Source: Streptomonospora nanhaiensis
GTDB lineage: Bacteria; Actinomycetota; Actinomycetes; Streptosporangiales; Streptosporangiaceae
Assembly: GCF_013410565.1 (NCBI RefSeq)
Contig: NZ_JACCFO010000001.1
Span: forward strand, 3,038,001-3,102,000
Direction: 5' to 3'
Length of the DNA: 64,000 nt
The notes below the pieces were generated by a model. That model had not been told where the DNA came from, searched no databases, and saw only the letters and a program-made list of their open reading frames with translations. This document shows positions 53,467-61,594 of this stretch, piece by piece. Numbering within the stretch: the first letter of the stretch is position 1; each line of letters starts with the position of its first letter. The position numbers and the translations under genes were made by a program.

Positions 53467-54963
53467 TCACTCGGGCTTGACGAGCGGGAAGAGGATGGTC
53501 TCGCGGATGTTGCGCCCCGTGAGCGCCATCAGCAGCCGGTCGATCCCCACGCCGACACCGCCGGTGGGCGGCATGCCGTACTCCAGCGCGCGCAGGAAGT
53601 CCTCGTCCAGCTGCATGGCCTCGGGGTCGCCGCCGGCGGCCATCAGCGACTGCTCGGTGAGGCGGCGCCGCTGCTCCACGGGGTCGACCAGCTCGGAGTA
53701 GCCGGTGCCCAGCTCCATGCCGAACCCGATCAGGTCCCACTTCTCGGTGAGCAGGGGGTCGTCGCGGTGCCGGCGGGTCAGCGGGCTGGTCTCGACCGGG
53801 TAGTCGCGGACGAAGACCGGCTCCTGGATGGTGTGCTCGACCAGCTCCTCGAAGAGGTGCTCGACGAGCTTGCCCTGCCCCCAGTCGGGGTTCCACTCCA
53901 CGCCGCGCGCGTCGGCGAGCTTGCGCACCGACTCCAGGGGCGTGCGCGGGGTGACCTCCTCGCCGAGGGCCTGCGACACCGAGCCGTAGAGGGTCACCGA
54001 ACCCCAGGTGCCGCCGAGGTCGTACTCGCGGCCGTCGCGCTCGACCACCGTGGTGCCGAACACCGCGCGGACCGCCTCCTGGAGGAGTTCGCGGGTGAGG
54101 TCGGCCATGGAGTCGTAGTCGCCGTAGGCCTGGTAGAACTCCAGCATCGTGAACTCGGGGTTGTGCGTGGAGTCCGCGCCCTCGTTGCGGAAGTTGCGGT
54201 TGATCTCGAAGACCTTCTCGATGCCGCCCACCACGAGCCGCTTGAGGTAGAGCTCGGGCGCGATCCGCAGGTAGAGGTCGAGGTGGTAGGCGTTGATGTG
54301 CGTGGTGAACGGCCGCGCGGTGGCGCCGCCGTGCACCCGCTGCAGCATCGGGGTCTCGACCTCCAGGAACCCGCGCTCGTCCAGGCCGCGGCGCAGCGCG
54401 CGGATGGCGGCCGAGCGGCTGCGCACCATCTGCCGGGCCTCGGGGTTGACGATGAGGTCGACGTAGCGCTGGCGCACCCGGGCCTCGGGGTCGGTCAGGC
54501 CCTTGTGCTTCTCGGGCAGGGGGCGCAGGCACTTGGCGGTCAGCGCCCAGGAGTCGACCATGATCGACAGCTCACCGCGGCGGGAGGTGATGACCTCGCC
54601 CTCGACGCCGACGTGGTCGCCGAGGTCGACGTCGGACTTCCAGGCGGCCAGGGATTCGGGCCCCAGCTTGTCCAGCGAGAGCATGACCTGGAGGTCGCCG
54701 GTGGAGTCGCGCAGGGTGGCGAAGCACAGCTTGCCGCCGGTGCGGTAGAGCATGACGCGCCCGGTGATCCCCACGCGCTCGCCGGTGGCCGAATCGGGCG
54801 TGAGACCGCCGTGTTTGTCCCGGACCGCGCCGATGGTGGTGGTCCGGGGGAACCCGAGCGGGAAGGGGTCGGTGCCCTCCGCGCGGATGCGGTCCAGTTT
54901 CTCGCGCCGGACCCGCATCTGTTCGGGCAGGTCGTCGTACGATTCGTCCAGCACTCCAGTCAC
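53467..54963 (-). CDS. lysS: Lysyl-tRNA synthetase, class II
   Basis: Charges tRNA-Lys; 498 residues. An N-terminal OB-fold anticodon domain (VGITGRVMLYRTGGKLCFAT) is followed by the class II core, with motif 2 in VFEINRNFRNEGADSTHNPE and motif 3 in GVGVGIDRLLMALTGR. There is no MprF-like domain, so this is the housekeeping type and not LysX. GTG 54963 is preceded by TAGGAT seven bases upstream, consistent with a leaderless transcript separate from the coaX operon 85 bases away. Confidence 0.95.
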   Translation of the reverse strand: MTGVLDESYDDLPEQMRVRREKLDRIRAEGTDPFPLGFPRTTTIGAVRDKHGGLTPDSATGERVGITGRVMLYRTGGKLCFATLRDSTGDLQVMLSLDKLGPESLAAWKSDVDLGDHVGVEGEVITSRRGELSIMVDSWALTAKCLRPLPEKHKGLTDPEARVRQRYVDLIVNPEARQMVRSRSAAIRALRRGLDERGFLEVETPMLQRVHGGATARPFTTHINAYHLDLYLRIAPELYLKRLVVGGIEKVFEINRNFRNEGADSTHNPEFTMLEFYQAYGDYDSMADLTRELLQEAVRAVFGTTVVERDGREYDLGGTWGSVTLYGSVSQALGEEVTPRTPLESVRKLADARGVEWNPDWGQGKLVEHLFEELVEHTIQEPVFVRDYPVETSPLTRRHRDDPLLTEKWDLIGFGMELGTGYSELVDPVEQRRRLTEQSLMAAGGDPEAMQLDEDFLRALEYGMPPTGGVGVGIDRLLMALTGRNIRETILFPLVKPE

Positions 54964-55048
54964 GCCCCCGATCCTATCCGCGCCCGGAGGGGCGCTCGGC
55001 CCCCGCGCCCGGGCGGGGCCGGGGCGCCGCAGCCCCGGCCCGCGGCAC

Positions 55049-55828
55049 TCACGTGTTGCGCTGGAACACCAGGCGCAGGCCGATCAGGGTCAGCCAGGGC
55101 TCGTGCACGTCGACGGTCTCGCACTCGTCGACCACCATCGGCGCCAGCCCGCCGGTGGCCACCACCGTGACCTCGTCGGCGTCGTCGGTCAGCTCCTGGG
55201 CCATGCGGTCCACGATCCCGTCGACCTGCCCGGCGAACCCGAACACGATGCCCGAGCGCAGCGCCTCGGTGGTGTTCTTGGCGATGACGGTGCGCGGCTT
55301 GACCAGCTCGACCATGTGCAGCTGGGCGCCGCGCCGCGACAGCGCCTCGACCGAGATGTCGATGCCCGGGGCGATGGCGCCGCCGACGTACTCGCCCTTG
55401 GCGCTGACCGCGTCGAAGGTGGTGGCGGTGCCGAAGTCGACCACCACCGCCGGGCCGCCGTAGAGCTGCACGGCCGCCAGCGCGTTGACGATGCGGTCGC
55501 TGCCGACCTCCTTGGGGTTGTCCATGCGCACCGGCACCCCGGTCTTGACGCCGGGCTCCACGATGACGGCGGGGACGTCGCCGAAGTGCCGGCGGAACAT
55601 CTCGCGCATCTCGTGCTGCACCGAGGGCACCGAGCAGCACAGCGAGATGCCGTCGACCGCGCCGGCGCCGATCATCGAACTGCCGCCGATCAGGCCCTGG
55701 AGCACCACGGCCCACTCGTCGGCGGTGCGCCGCGCCTCAGTGGAGACGCGCCAGTGCTCCAGCAGGTCCTCGTCGTCGAAGAGCCCGAGAACCGTGTGCG
55801 AGTTGCCGACGTCGATCGCGAGCAGCAT
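55049..55828 (-). CDS. coaX: Type III pantothenate kinase
   Basis: Phosphorylates pantothenate in the first step of coenzyme A synthesis; 259 residues. ASKHA-fold signatures are AIDVGNSHTVLGLFD (phosphate loop), GSDRIVNALAA, VVVDFGTATTFDAVS and GGAIAPGIDIS. It is the last gene of the DUF2520-panC-nadBC-coaX run, 33 bases after nadBC. No coaA (type I kinase) is visible here to indicate redundancy. Confidence 0.94.
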   Translation of the reverse strand: MLLAIDVGNSHTVLGLFDDEDLLEHWRVSTEARRTADEWAVVLQGLIGGSSMIGAGAVDGISLCCSVPSVQHEMREMFRRHFGDVPAVIVEPGVKTGVPVRMDNPKEVGSDRIVNALAAVQLYGGPAVVVDFGTATTFDAVSAKGEYVGGAIAPGIDISVEALSRRGAQLHMVELVKPRTVIAKNTTEALRSGIVFGFAGQVDGIVDRMAQELTDDADEVTVVATGGLAPMVVDECETVDVHEPWLTLIGLRLVFQRNT

Positions 55829-55861
55829 CAGTGGGCCTCTCCTGGTCCGTTCCGGAGGATC

Positions 55862-58462
55862 TCAGTGAATGTCCCGGAGATCGAGCGCAATGTCCAGAGC
55901 TGGGCTGGAATGGGTCAGCGCGCCGACCGCCAGGAAGTCCACACCCGTGGCCGCCACGGCCGCGGCGTCGCCGAGGGCGAGCCCGCCGCTGGCCTCAAGG
56001 CGCGCGCGCCCGGCCACCAGCTCCACGGCTTCGCGCATCCGCTCCACGGTGAAGTTGTCCAGCAGGATCTCCTCGGCGCCGGCCGCCAGCGCGGGCTCGA
56101 TCTGGTCGATCCGGTCGACCTCGACCTCCAGCGGCACCCCGGGGCCGGCGGCCCGCACCGCCCGCACGGCCTCGGCCACGCCGCCGGCGGCCAGCACGTG
56201 GTTGTCCTTGATGAGGGCGGCATCGGCCAGACCGAAACGGTGGTTCACGCCGCCCCCGCAGCGCACCGCGTACTTCTCCAGCGCGCGCAGGCCCAGGTGG
56301 GTCTTGCGGCTGTCGCGGACGCGGGCGCCGGTGCCGGCGACCGCGGCCACCCAGGCGGCGGTGGCGGTGGCGATCCCCGACAGGTGGGTGAGGACGTTGA
56401 GGGCGGTGCGCTCGGCGGTGAGCAGGTGGCGGGTGCGGGCGGTGACGGTCATCAGCACGTCGCCCCGGCGCACGCGGTCGCCGTCGGCGACGTGTCTTCG
56501 GACCTCCATGACGCCTTCGGTGACCAGGGCGAACACGAGTTCGGCCACGGGCAGCCCGGCCACGACCCCCTCGGCGCGGGCGACCACGTCGGCGGTGCGG
56601 ATCTGGGCGGCGGGGATGGTGGCGGCGGTGGTGACGTCGACGCCGGTGCCCGCGCCCTCGCCGGGCGGCAGCAGGTCCTCGCGCAGCGCGGCGCGCACCC
56701 GCTCCACCACGGCCGCCGCGCCGCCGCCGGAGTGGCCGCCCGAGCGGGCGACCTCGGCCAGCTCCGGCAGCGCCTCCGGCGCGGGCTCGGCCGGGGGCCG
56801 GACGACCACGTACGGCCGCCCGCCCAGCGCCGCCCGCACCCCGAACCGGGACGCGGCGGGGTCGGCGCCGGCGGACGCCGGGGACTCCGCCTCGGCGCAC
56901 GCCCGCCGGTACGCCGCGTGCACCAGGGTCAGCGCCACGGTCAGCAGGTTGGCGGCCTCCCACGCCGGGGTGCCGGGCACGGCCTCGGCGTTGCGGGGGT
57001 CGGCGGCCACGGCACCCAGCTCCTCCAGCGCCGCCCCGAGCCCGTCCGCGTCGCGGACCACCCCGGCGTGCCGGGACATCACCGCGCGGACGCGCGGCAC
57101 CAGCTCGGGGGCCACCAGCCCGCCGGGGCCCTCGGGCGCGGCGGCCGGGCGGGCGCTCACGGCCGGGCCGCCGCCCGCGGCCAGGTCCTCGGCGACCCGG
57201 TGGGCGAACACCACGCTCTCCAGCAGCGAGTTGGAGGCCAGGCGGTTGGCCCCGTGCACGCCGGTGCGCGCGACCTCGCCCACGGCGTAGAGGCCGGCCA
57301 CCGTGGTGCGCCCGCGCAGGTCGGTGCGCAGCCCGCCCGAGGCGTAGTGGGCGGCCGGGGCGACCGGGATCGGCTCGGTCACCGGGTCGATGCCGTGCTT
57401 GCGGCACGCGGCCAGGATGGTGGGGAAGCGCTCCTCCCACATGGCGGCGCCGAAGTGCCGGGCGTCCAGCAGCACGTGGTCGGCGCCGGTGGCGGCCATG
57501 GCGGCGGCGATGCCCTGGGCCACCACGTCGCGCGGCGCGAGGTCGGCCAGCTCGTGGCGGTCGGCCATGAACCGGCGGCCCTCGGTGTCGAGGAGGAACG
57601 CGCCCTCGCCGCGCACCGCCTCGGAGATCAGCGGCTGCTGGCCGCGGGCCTGCGCACCCAGCCACAGCACGGTGGGGTGGAACTGGACGAACTCCAGGTC
57701 CTCGGCCTCGGCGCCGGCGCGCAGGCCCGCGGCCAGGCCGTCGCCGGTGGAGACCTCGGGGTTGGTGGTGGCGGCGAACACCTGGCCGATGCCGCCGGTG
57801 GCCAGGACCACGGCGCGCGCGGCGACCCGGCCCACGCCGTCGCGCTCGCCCTCACCCATCACGTGCACGGTGACCCCGGCGGCGGCGCTCGGCCCCTCGG
57901 CGCCGGAGGCGGGGGCCACCGGCAGCAGGTCGGGGACGAAGGCGTGCTCGATGACCTCGATGCGCGGCTCGGCGGCGACGGCGGAGATCAGCGCTCGCTC
58001 GATCTCGGCGCCGGTGGCGTCGCCGCCGGCGTGGGCGATGCGGCGGGCCCGGTGGCCGCCCTCGCGGGTCAGCTCCAGGCTGCCGTCGGCGGCGCGGTCG
58101 AAGGCCGTGCCGCGCTCGACCAGCCAGCGCAGCGCCTCGGGCCCGGCGGTGACCAGGGTGCGCACCGCGGCGACGTCGCACAGCTCGCGCCCGGCCACGA
58201 TGGTGTCGACCATGTGGGCCAGCGGGGCGTCGGAGGGGTCGACGACCGCGGCGATCCCGCCCTGGGCCCAGCGGGTGGAGCCGGTGGAGAGCAGGTCCTT
58301 GGTGACGAGCACCACCCGGCCGCGGGGCGCGAGTTCGGTGTAGCGCAGCGCGGTGCTCAGCCCGGCGATTCCGGAGCCGACGACCACGACGTCGGTCTCG
58401 ACGGTCCAGCCCGGCGCGGGCGCGGCGAGCCTGCGCGGCAGGGCGAAGGGGTTGTCCGGCAC
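55862..58462 (-). CDS. L-aspartate oxidase - nicotinate-nucleotide pyrophosphorylase fusion (NadB-NadC)
   Basis: One uninterrupted frame of 866 residues. Residues 1-~550 are NadB: FAD motif VVVGSGIAGLS, AHAGGDATGAEIE, VQFHPTVL and TGVHGANRLASNSLLES (401-417). Residues ~583-866 are NadC: HLSGIATATAAWV, DSRKTHLGLRALEKYAV, HRFGLADAALIKDNH and LEVEVDRIDQIE. The usual NadB C-terminal SRG-H-R-D motif is not seen; a Pro/Ala-rich stretch stands there instead. GTG 58462 follows AAGGAGG. It would make iminoaspartate and later nicotinate mononucleotide in NAD synthesis; NadA, the middle enzyme, is not in the window. Confidence 0.9.
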   Translation of the reverse strand: MPDNPFALPRRLAAPAPGWTVETDVVVVGSGIAGLSTALRYTELAPRGRVVLVTKDLLSTGSTRWAQGGIAAVVDPSDAPLAHMVDTIVAGRELCDVAAVRTLVTAGPEALRWLVERGTAFDRAADGSLELTREGGHRARRIAHAGGDATGAEIERALISAVAAEPRIEVIEHAFVPDLLPVAPASGAEGPSAAAGVTVHVMGEGERDGVGRVAARAVVLATGGIGQVFAATTNPEVSTGDGLAAGLRAGAEAEDLEFVQFHPTVLWLGAQARGQQPLISEAVRGEGAFLLDTEGRRFMADRHELADLAPRDVVAQGIAAAMAATGADHVLLDARHFGAAMWEERFPTILAACRKHGIDPVTEPIPVAPAAHYASGGLRTDLRGRTTVAGLYAVGEVARTGVHGANRLASNSLLESVVFAHRVAEDLAAGGGPAVSARPAAAPEGPGGLVAPELVPRVRAVMSRHAGVVRDADGLGAALEELGAVAADPRNAEAVPGTPAWEAANLLTVALTLVHAAYRRACAEAESPASAGADPAASRFGVRAALGGRPYVVVRPPAEPAPEALPELAEVARSGGHSGGGAAAVVERVRAALREDLLPPGEGAGTGVDVTTAATIPAAQIRTADVVARAEGVVAGLPVAELVFALVTEGVMEVRRHVADGDRVRRGDVLMTVTARTRHLLTAERTALNVLTHLSGIATATAAWVAAVAGTGARVRDSRKTHLGLRALEKYAVRCGGGVNHRFGLADAALIKDNHVLAAGGVAEAVRAVRAAGPGVPLEVEVDRIDQIEPALAAGAEEILLDNFTVERMREAVELVAGRARLEASGGLALGDAAAVAATGVDFLAVGALTHSSPALDIALDLRDIH

Positions 58463-58499
58463 CGCGGTCCTCCTTGTTCCGCCGCCGCCCTCGCCGAGG

Positions 58500-59360
58500 T
58501 CACAGGGTGAGCGGCACGTTGTCGATCAGCCGGGTCCTGCCCACCCACGCCGCCACGAGCAGCACGGCGTCGCCCCGGTGGTCGGCGGCCACCTCGGTGA
58601 AGGTGCCGGCGTCGACCAGGGCCAGGTAGTCCACCGACACCGGCGGAGTGGCCTGAGCTGCCTCGTCGAGGACCGCCCGGGCCGCACTGAGGATACCCAC
58701 CGGCCCGGTGACCGAGGCGTCCGCCCCGGCCAGCAGGGCGCGCGACAGCGCCAGCGCGCTGCGCCGCTCCTCGGGGCTGAGGTAGGCGTTGCGGCTGGAG
58801 GAGGCGAGGTTGTCGGGGTCGCGCATGGTGGGCGCCGCCACGACGGTGACGGGCATGTTGAGGTCGCGCACCATGCGGCGGACCAGGGCGAGCTGCTGGG
58901 CGTCCTTCTGGCCGAACACCGCGATGTCGGGGCGCACCAGGTTGAACAGCTTGTTGACGACCGTGAGGACCCCGCCGAAGAAGCCGGGGCGGGACGCGCC
59001 CTCCAGGACGGCGCCCATGGGGCCGGGGTCCACCCGCACGATCTGCTCGCCGGGGTACATGTCCTCGACCGAGGGCGCGAAGACCAGCGCCACGCCCTCC
59101 TCGGCGCACACGGCGAGGTCGGCGTCGAGGTCGCGGGGGTAGCGCTCGTAGTCCTCGCCGGGGCCGAACTGCAGCGGGTTGACGAACACGCTGACCACGA
59201 CCGCGTCGGCGTGCTCGCGCGCGGCGGCGATGAGGGAGCGGTGCCCGTTGTGCAGGGCGCCCATGGTGGGCACCAGCGCGACCCGCCCGAGCCGGGAGCG
59301 CAGCCGGCCGAGCTCCTCGGGGGTGCGGGCGAGTGCGGGGGCGGGGATGGGGTGGCTCAT
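58500..59360 (-). CDS. panC: Pantothenate synthetase
   Basis: Joins pantoate and beta-alanine using ATP; 286 residues. It carries the HIGH-like [15 protein letters not shown], the [18 protein letters not shown] block, [20 protein letters not shown] and the KMSKS-region counterpart [18 protein letters not shown]. In that last block Asn and Ser replace the more common Gly and Leu, a small deviation. The ATG at 59360 is 46 bases after the DUF2520 gene. panD is not between panC and nadB as it is in many relatives. Confidence 0.94.
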
Positions 59361-59406
59361 GGGGGCTCTTTCGTGGGTGCGGGTCCGGGGTCCGGGGGCC
59401 GCCGCC

Positions 59407-60297
59407 CTAGTCCTGGAGCACGTCCAGCAGGCGTTCGGCGTCGTGCGGCTTGAGCAGGCCGGCGGCCAGCGCGCGGTCGGCGGTCAGCCGGGCCAGCGCG
59501 ATGTAGGCGGGCACGCTCTCGGGCGAGTGCCGCCGCAGCTCGGCGATGTGGGCGGCGACGGTGGCGGTGTCGCCGCGCAGCACGGGCCCGCTCAGGCCGT
59601 CCATGCCCAGGCGCAGGGCGTTGTCCAGCGCGGCGCCCAGCAGCGGACCCAGCAGGCGGCCGGGGTTGTCCACCCCGGCGGCGCCCAGCAGGGCGGCGCT
59701 CTCGGCGACCAGCGTGACCAGGTGGTTCGCGCCCCCGGCCAGGGCGGTGTGGTACAGGGTGCGGTGCTCCTCGGCGATCCACACGGGCTCGGCGCCCATC
59801 TCGACCACCAGCGCCTCGGCGATGGGCCGCAGGGTGTCGGGGGCGGTGACACCGAAGGAGGCGCTGGCCAGCCGGTCGAGGTCCTCGTCGCGGCCGGTGA
59901 AGGTCATGACGGGGTGCAGGGCCAGGGGCAGGGCCCCGGCTGCGGTGGCGGGCGCCAGCACCTGGTGGCCGTGGGCGCCGCTGGTGTGCACCAGGAAGGT
60001 GCCGGTGACGTCGGCGCCGGTCTCGACCAGGCCGCGCACGAGGGGTTCCAGGGCGTCGTCGGGGACGGTGAGCAGCACGAGGTCGGCGGAGTCCACGACG
60101 TCGGAGGGGTCGGTGAGGCGGGCGGTGGGGAGCCGGGCCTCGGCCAGGCGGCGGGAGCGCTCGGACACGGCCGAGGCGGCCACCACCTCGTGTCCGGCGC
60201 GGGCCAGGGCCGCGCCCAGCGCGGAGCCGACCCGGCCGGCGCCGACGACCCCGACGCGCAGCCGCGCCGGGCGTTCGGAGTTCTCCTGGGGCCGCAT
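59407..60297 (-). CDS. DUF2520 / Rossmann-fold NAD(P)-binding protein
   Basis: Protein of 296 residues. The N-terminal Rossmann domain has [22 protein letters not shown]-terminal helical DUF2520 domain follows, with [20 protein letters not shown] and [15 protein letters not shown]. It resembles ketopantoate/pyrroline-carboxylate reductase-like dehydrogenases and often precedes panC, so a role in pantothenate synthesis has been supposed in general; the reaction is unproven. ATG 60297 has AGG close upstream. It is the first gene of the cofactor operon. Confidence 0.85.
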
Positions 60298-60605
60298 CGC
60301 ACCTCGTTCCAGTCCACTCGGGTACCGGACATTGTGCGGCCAGCTTACTGAGCGCCGTCGGCCGTCGCGGTCGCGCCACCCCGGTGCGGCGCGCCGCCGG
60401 GGCGGTGCCCGGCGGGGGCGGCGGCGGGCGGGGCGGTCGGGGACCGCGCGGGCCGCGCGGGGGCCGGCCCCGTGTCCGGAGGCCGCGGCGGGCGGGGCCG
60501 CCGGGGAGGCGACCGGCGCCGGCCCGCGGGGGGCCGGCGCCGGTGCCCGCGTGCGGGCACGGATACCGCGCGCGGGCGCCTGGGGCGCGCTCCGCTGAGC
60601 GGGGC
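60298..60605. other. Region between chaplin gene and the DUF2520 operon
   Basis: Besides the tandem hairpins at 60512-60560 this stretch is GC-rich without a gene; the part next to 60300-60350 is less GC-rich and likely carries the operon promoter. Confidence 0.4.
60512..60560 (-). terminator. Tandem terminators after the first chaplin gene
   Basis: Two adjacent hairpins: a perfect 14-bp stem (60512-60525 with 60531-60544) and GTGCCCGC-GT-GCGGGCAC (60543-60560), both within 95 bases of the chaplin stop. Confidence 0.8.
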
Positions 60606-60848
60606 CTACTGGTTGCTGACGATGACGCCGGAGTTCCAGCAGCTCGCGCCGGCGTTGCCGAGCACGGCGACCGCGTTGCCGCAGCCGTTGACGGGGACGT
60701 CGGCGTTGACGACGGCCTGGTTGCCGGCGACGACCCCGCCGTTGCCGGAGGTCTGGACGTAGTCGGAGGCGAAGGCGGGGGTGCCCGCCAGGAGGACGGC
60801 CGCGGAGGCGGCGGTGACGATGCCGGCGGCGAGAGACTTCTTCAGCAC
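60606..60848 (-). CDS. Short chaplin (hydrophobic aerial-hypha surface protein)
   Basis: Secreted protein of 80 residues with a signal peptide (VLKKSLAAGIVTAASAAVLL to about residue 27, cleaved near AFA). One chaplin domain follows, with GNGGVVAGNQAVVNADVPVN, GCGNAVAVLGNAG and two Cys (GCGN, ASCWN) that form the typical disulfide. It has no LPXTG, so it is a short, amyloid-forming type. GTG 60848 has AGGGG eight bases upstream. Confidence 0.92.
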   Translation of the reverse strand: MLKKSLAAGIVTAASAAVLLAGTPAFASDYVQTSGNGGVVAGNQAVVNADVPVNGCGNAVAVLGNAGASCWNSGVIVSNQ

Positions 60849-60868
60849 GTGGATTCCCCTCTTCCAGA

Positions 60869-60887
60869 CCGGGCGGGGGTCGCCCGG
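60869..60887 (-). promoter_or_regulatory. Leader hairpin upstream of chaplin 1
   Basis: CCGGGCG-GGGGT-CGCCCGG lies about 21 bases before the start codon, directly next to the ribosome site. The second chaplin has a hairpin at a matching position. Confidence 0.4.
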
Positions 60888-61275
60888 CCGTCGCGGTTGC
60901 TGCCTGAGCACGCGCTGTGCTCGGCACCCATCTACGCACACCGACGCCCGTCCGCGCCGCCGGCCACCAGCGCGGATCACATTAAGGAACGATAATGGGA
61001 CGCTGAGTCGCCGCACATTTCCGGATTTGGATCCGCGTACCGCCCGCTGTCTGCAGCGACATGTGAGAGAGGACACATGCGATGTGCCCGATTTCGCCCG
61101 CCGCCTATCCGGCGTTTCGGTGAGAAGAGTTCCGACCCGGTTCCGGGCGGGGCGAAACGAGCACGGGCGTACGCACGTTGCGAATCCATACCGGGACCGC
61201 CCCAGAGGCACCGGAACGGGCGTATCGACCGGACACGACCGCCGGACGGGCGGCGTCCGCCCCGGAGACACGAAA

Positions 61276-61351: not shown

Positions 61352-61594
61352 TCAGTTCTTGACGAAGGCGCCGGAGTCCTCGCAGTAGGCGCCGGCGTTG
61401 CCGATCACGGCGATGGCGTTGCCGCACACGTTGATCGGGACGTTCAGGTCCAGGCCGAGCTGGTTGCCGCCCAGGATGCTGCCGTTGCCCGACGTCTCCT
61501 GCTCGACCTCGGCGGAGGCGGCGGGCGCCCCGGCGATGAACGCACCGGCAGCGGCGGCGGCGATGGCGCTGGCGACCAGGGTCTTCTTCAGCAC
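61352..61594 (-). CDS. Short chaplin
   Basis: Secreted protein of 80 residues, the same length as its neighbour. The signal peptide includes SAIAAAAAGAFIAGAPA and ends near residue 28. The chaplin domain contains GNGSILGGNQLGLDLNVPIN, VCGNAIAVIGNAG and a second Cys in AYCEDSG. GTG 61594 has GGAGGGG seven bases upstream. The two proteins share the architecture but differ in most non-core positions, so the pair is an old duplication rather than a recent one. Confidence 0.92.
   Translation of the reverse strand: MLKKTLVASAIAAAAAGAFIAGAPAASAEVEQETSGNGSILGGNQLGLDLNVPINVCGNAIAVIGNAGAYCEDSGAFVKN

Follow-up and report, generated by a model that had tools for sequence, protein, structure and literature searches.

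Streptomonospora nanhaiensis encodes L-aspartate oxidase (NadB) and quinolinate phosphoribosyltransferase (NadC) in one continuous gene, the product of which is probably a bifunctional chain of the de novo NAD pathway, with both enzymes independently active and co-produced in a 1:1 ratio. In such a chain, the NadB site, belonging to the first enzyme of bacterial NAD synthesis, would convert aspartate to iminoaspartate and the NadC site, belonging to the third, would later convert quinolinate to nicotinate mononucleotide, with a separate NadA acting between them. The fusion is not peculiar to S. nanhaiensis, but a clade-wide trait. The new detail is the loss of the ETRGSHWRED loop of NadB in four genera, together with a fast-evolving junction between two enzymes that keep their catalytic residues.

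The fused nadB-nadC gene lies on the minus strand at 58462..55862 of the window (the whole stretch of 64,000 nucleotides analysed here) and encodes 866 residues in a single frame without internal stop. It starts with GTG at 58462, with the sequence AAGGAGG located 6 nt upstream, and its stop codon, TGA, ends at 55862. The initial annotation, which named no strand, had described an uninterrupted frame of 866 residues containing both sets of catalytic motifs; both statements hold, the former upon reading the frame on the DNA and the latter upon alignment to 1chu and 1qpn. According to the reading frame and its domain matches, NadB extends from residue 1 to about 554, with an altered tail, and NadC from about 562 to 866. 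More specifically, profiles and alignments assign residues 1 to ~521 (56898..58462) to the part of NadB that harbors its five catalytic residues and residues ~597–866 (55865..56672) to the catalytic part of NadC. In between, alignments and AlphaFold2 models place the altered NadB tail (residues ~522–560; 56781..56897), which consists of a loop followed by a predicted β-hairpin, and a linker with the N-terminal helices of NadC (residues ~561–596; 56673..56780), all on the minus strand. The GC content of the three codon positions across the junction (0.88/0.69/1.00) is coding-like.

Both halves reach equivalog scores for their respective enzymes. The NadB half matches Pfam FAD_binding_2 at residues 24–413 and exceeds the cut-offs of NF005867 (L-aspartate oxidase; residues 8–521, 714 bits versus 639) and TIGR00551 (NadB; 485 bits versus 452.75). 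In the alignment to 1chu, it retains E, H, R, H and R at the positions of E121, H244, R290, H351 and R386 in Escherichia coli NadB, which we take to be the catalytic residues. The NadC half matches the Pfam domains QRPTase_N (residues 609–695) and QRPTase_C (697–861) as well as TIGR00078 (nadC; residues 589–861, 288.8 bits versus a cut-off of 198.4), and the alignment to 1qpn shows that all of the presumable active-site residues of Mycobacterium tuberculosis NadC (R105, R139, K140, H161, R162, K172, E201 and D222) are kept. The sequence RKTHLGLR in place of RKTxPGLR was considered as a meaningful change and dismissed, as this position is widely variable. We also looked for NadC start codons inside the frame that are preceded by a ribosome-binding site, but none of the candidate starts has a convincing one; there is only a GGAG directly 5' of a GTG at codon 589.

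The fusion is both the sole nadB and the sole nadC of the genome. Other NadB matches, evaluated as a possible second nadB, score far below the cut-off and resemble subunits of succinate dehydrogenase/fumarate reductase, and no aspartate dehydrogenase able to stand in for NadB was found in the genome. The single nadA is unlinked, lying at 2.39 Mb on the same contig, ~0.7 Mb away from the fusion at 3.09 Mb. Immediately upstream of the fusion lies panC, encoding pantoate-beta-alanine ligase (58500..59360, minus strand), and immediately downstream coaX, encoding type III pantothenate kinase (55049..55828, minus strand); lysS is located downstream as well. Together with a Rossmann/DUF2520 gene, nadB-nadC, the CoA genes panC and coaX, and lysS form an apparent operon on the minus strand (53467–60351). 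Upstream of panC-nadBC-coaX, the same strand encodes two small secreted chaplin-like proteins, of which the first (60606–60890) matches Pfam ChpA-C and the second (61352–61594) is similar by eye.

The fusion is a single open frame in all six Streptomonospora species (6/6), including S. mangrovi, which is 96% identical to S. nanhaiensis over the tree columns, and Streptomonospora sp. PA3. The initial annotation had proposed a comparison with sister species and raised the concern of a missed indel; no two-gene orthologue occurs in the genus, most of the family is likewise fused, and since all six congeners share the fusion, it cannot stem from an indel overlooked in a single assembly. The notion that two genes were merged by an assembly or sequencing error thus has a negligible probability: nothing was found in its favor beyond the fact that the genes of unfused relatives differ by one frame, but the fusion recurs in dozens of genera with independent assemblies. 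To determine its spread, we surveyed one or more genomes per genus in 68 genera of the GTDB family and found the genes fused in 43 and separate in 17; in four genera, the genome tested had neither gene, and another four were unsettled due to broken contigs. All fusion calls rest on DNA, and open-frame length as sole proof of fusion was dropped, given that in two genomes (G052 and G034) the genes seemed fused, yet are separated by a stop or by broken sequence. The four genomes with neither nadB nor nadC (G018, G022, G039 and G067) might represent NAD auxotrophs or be incomplete; G067 is a single contig and 96% complete.

The Actinomadura species and the named Streptomyces and Kitasatospora have two genes. 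In genomes with separate genes, nadC mostly begins within nadB, 4 nt short of its end and in another frame. Among 198 genomes sampled across the class, we found uninterrupted fused matches only in three families (f1, f8 and f12) plus a single genus of a fourth (f27), as checked on the DNA, which agrees with the initial expectation that most actinomycetes have separate, adjacent nadB and nadC genes. A small-genome genus of a family other than that of S. nanhaiensis (L236 and L237, from genomes G444 and G476) has a NadB-NadC fusion nested among two-gene relatives.

Nearly every NadB in the comparison set, whether fused or unfused, carries an ETRGSHWREDxP motif in its tail. The ETRGSHWRED loop is lost in four genera that group together with a support of 99, namely Streptomonospora and three sister genera, and the motif is partly worn in one genus beyond these four. 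In S. nanhaiensis, the NadB half has no E[ST]RG-x-H motif at its C-terminus, a loss that had escaped the initial annotation; this motif is frequent in NadB but not established as a requirement for NadB membership. An Ala/Ser-rich, low-confidence loop is found where ETRGSHWRED would stand (residues ~527–539). Within this loop, AlphaFold2 assigns very low confidence to residues 530–537, and it still predicts the subsequent hairpin (540–554); the models of the fusion and of a motif-bearing relative both display two well-folded domains with a short joining segment. Between S. nanhaiensis and S. mangrovi, 4.8% of the residues differ in NadB, 4.4% in NadC and 53% in the junction, where the frame is nonetheless kept, and the nucleotide changes in the two enzymes fall mostly on third positions. 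The junction thereby evolves approximately ten times faster than either enzyme in this pair, and with the enzyme halves being less than 5% different, it follows that these are under strong constraint, whereas the junction is not. Worn ESxGAH motifs were also seen in two NadB tails of family f29 (L227 and L130), so motif loss is not confined to fused proteins.

As nearly all other NadB proteins keep ETRGSHWRED, its loss might signal a weakened NadB, which would speak against a bifunctional chain. Taken further, the NadB half of Streptomonospora could be decaying, weak or even dead without this loop, and the fusion a relic kept for NadC. While the loss of a conserved loop in four genera is in line with this possibility, we regard it as improbable: all NadB catalytic residues are kept, NadB diverges as slowly as NadC, again mostly at third positions, and the genome has neither another nadB equivalog nor an aspartate dehydrogenase as a substitute. 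For a bifunctional chain, we instead propose that the tail loop decayed after fusion in these four genera, perhaps because the covalently attached NadC took over its C-terminal role.

To trace the history of the fusion, we calculated a tree from the NadB and NadC cores (105 rows). The fused rows of the S. nanhaiensis family form one group (SH-aLRT 97), which is adjoined by f8 and f12. The two-gene family f20 groups with f12, implying that either f20 re-split the gene or f12 fused independently. A single fused clade is not rejected (p-AU 0.85), and one old fusion in the lineage of S. nanhaiensis would fit the tree. By contrast, the f27 fusion is nested inside two-gene f27 rows with a support of 99, indicating that it is apparently of independent origin, although an AU test with all fusions, including f27, forced into one clade did not formally reject this arrangement (p 0.106). 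In fused proteins outside the branch of S. nanhaiensis, hardly any linker separates the last NadB β-hairpin from the AGLDP helix, the first one of NadC. Since the hairpin runs almost straight into the helix in most fused relatives, the fusion probably arose at the overlap of nadB and nadC. In the simplest scenario, the genes overlapped by about 4 nt in the ancestor, and a one-base frame change or the loss of the stop at this overlap would have joined them without the loss of either domain.

The benefit of such a fusion, if any, may lie in the 1:1 co-production of both enzymes, and possibly also in an arrangement of NadB units around a core of NadC, because NadC forms oligomers. Still, the apparently independent fusion in f27 hints at a selective reason, which the bifunctional reading leaves unspecified. 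The initial annotation had proposed that the fusion either holds a NadA-containing complex together or fixes the stoichiometry. Iminoaspartate is short-lived, and the chain could be a scaffold on which NadA docks, so that NadA receives the iminoaspartate and NadC in turn the quinolinate. This appears unlikely: the NadA step does fall between the two fused steps, and by the tree, the fusion of these flanking steps arose at least twice, but the unlinked nadA lends the idea no support, and the junction is hypervariable, with the NadB tail loop lost in part of the clade and no conserved docking element seen there. Given how loose the junction is, conserved docking is unlikely to take place there. 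We find it about equally doubtful that the fusion serves as the nucleus for an assembly of all three enzymes, including NadA, in which both iminoaspartate and quinolinate are passed on and the lost loop marks a NadB contact replaced by the covalent partner.

No mention of a NadB-NadC fusion turned up in the literature searched, the coverage of which was partial, so it may well be recorded elsewhere. Overall, the gene fusion is neat but rather ordinary, most likely yielding two working enzymes in equal amounts. It nevertheless lends itself to the question of whether NadB, NadA and NadC work as a complex: natural fused and unfused pairs exist among close relatives, the fusion apparently originated twice, and one subclade dropped a widely kept NadB loop once the genes were joined. 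Should the fusion be neutral, it would be a clean case of a gene overlap turning into a gene fusion.

Compared with known systems, the NadB half resembles E. coli NadB (1chu; TIGR00551, NF005867) in its FAD and capping domains, the five catalytic residues and the helical C-terminal domain. It differs in that the chain runs on into NadC and in that the C-terminal ETRG/ESRG-x-HxRxD loop of NadB is gone in the clade of S. nanhaiensis. Likewise, the NadC half shares both QRPTase domains with M. tuberculosis NadC (1qpn/1qpo; TIGR00078), along with all of the active-site motifs ERT, RKT, NHR, KDNH, EVEVD and LDN; here, however, NadC is part of a longer chain rather than a protein of its own, and in Streptomonospora variable sequence takes the place of its N-terminal AGLDP stretch. 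Finally, the nadB-nadC pairs of Actinomadura and Streptomyces have the same order and orientation as the fusion, with a 4-nt overlap in most, but while they give rise to two products from two frames, the fusion is read in one.
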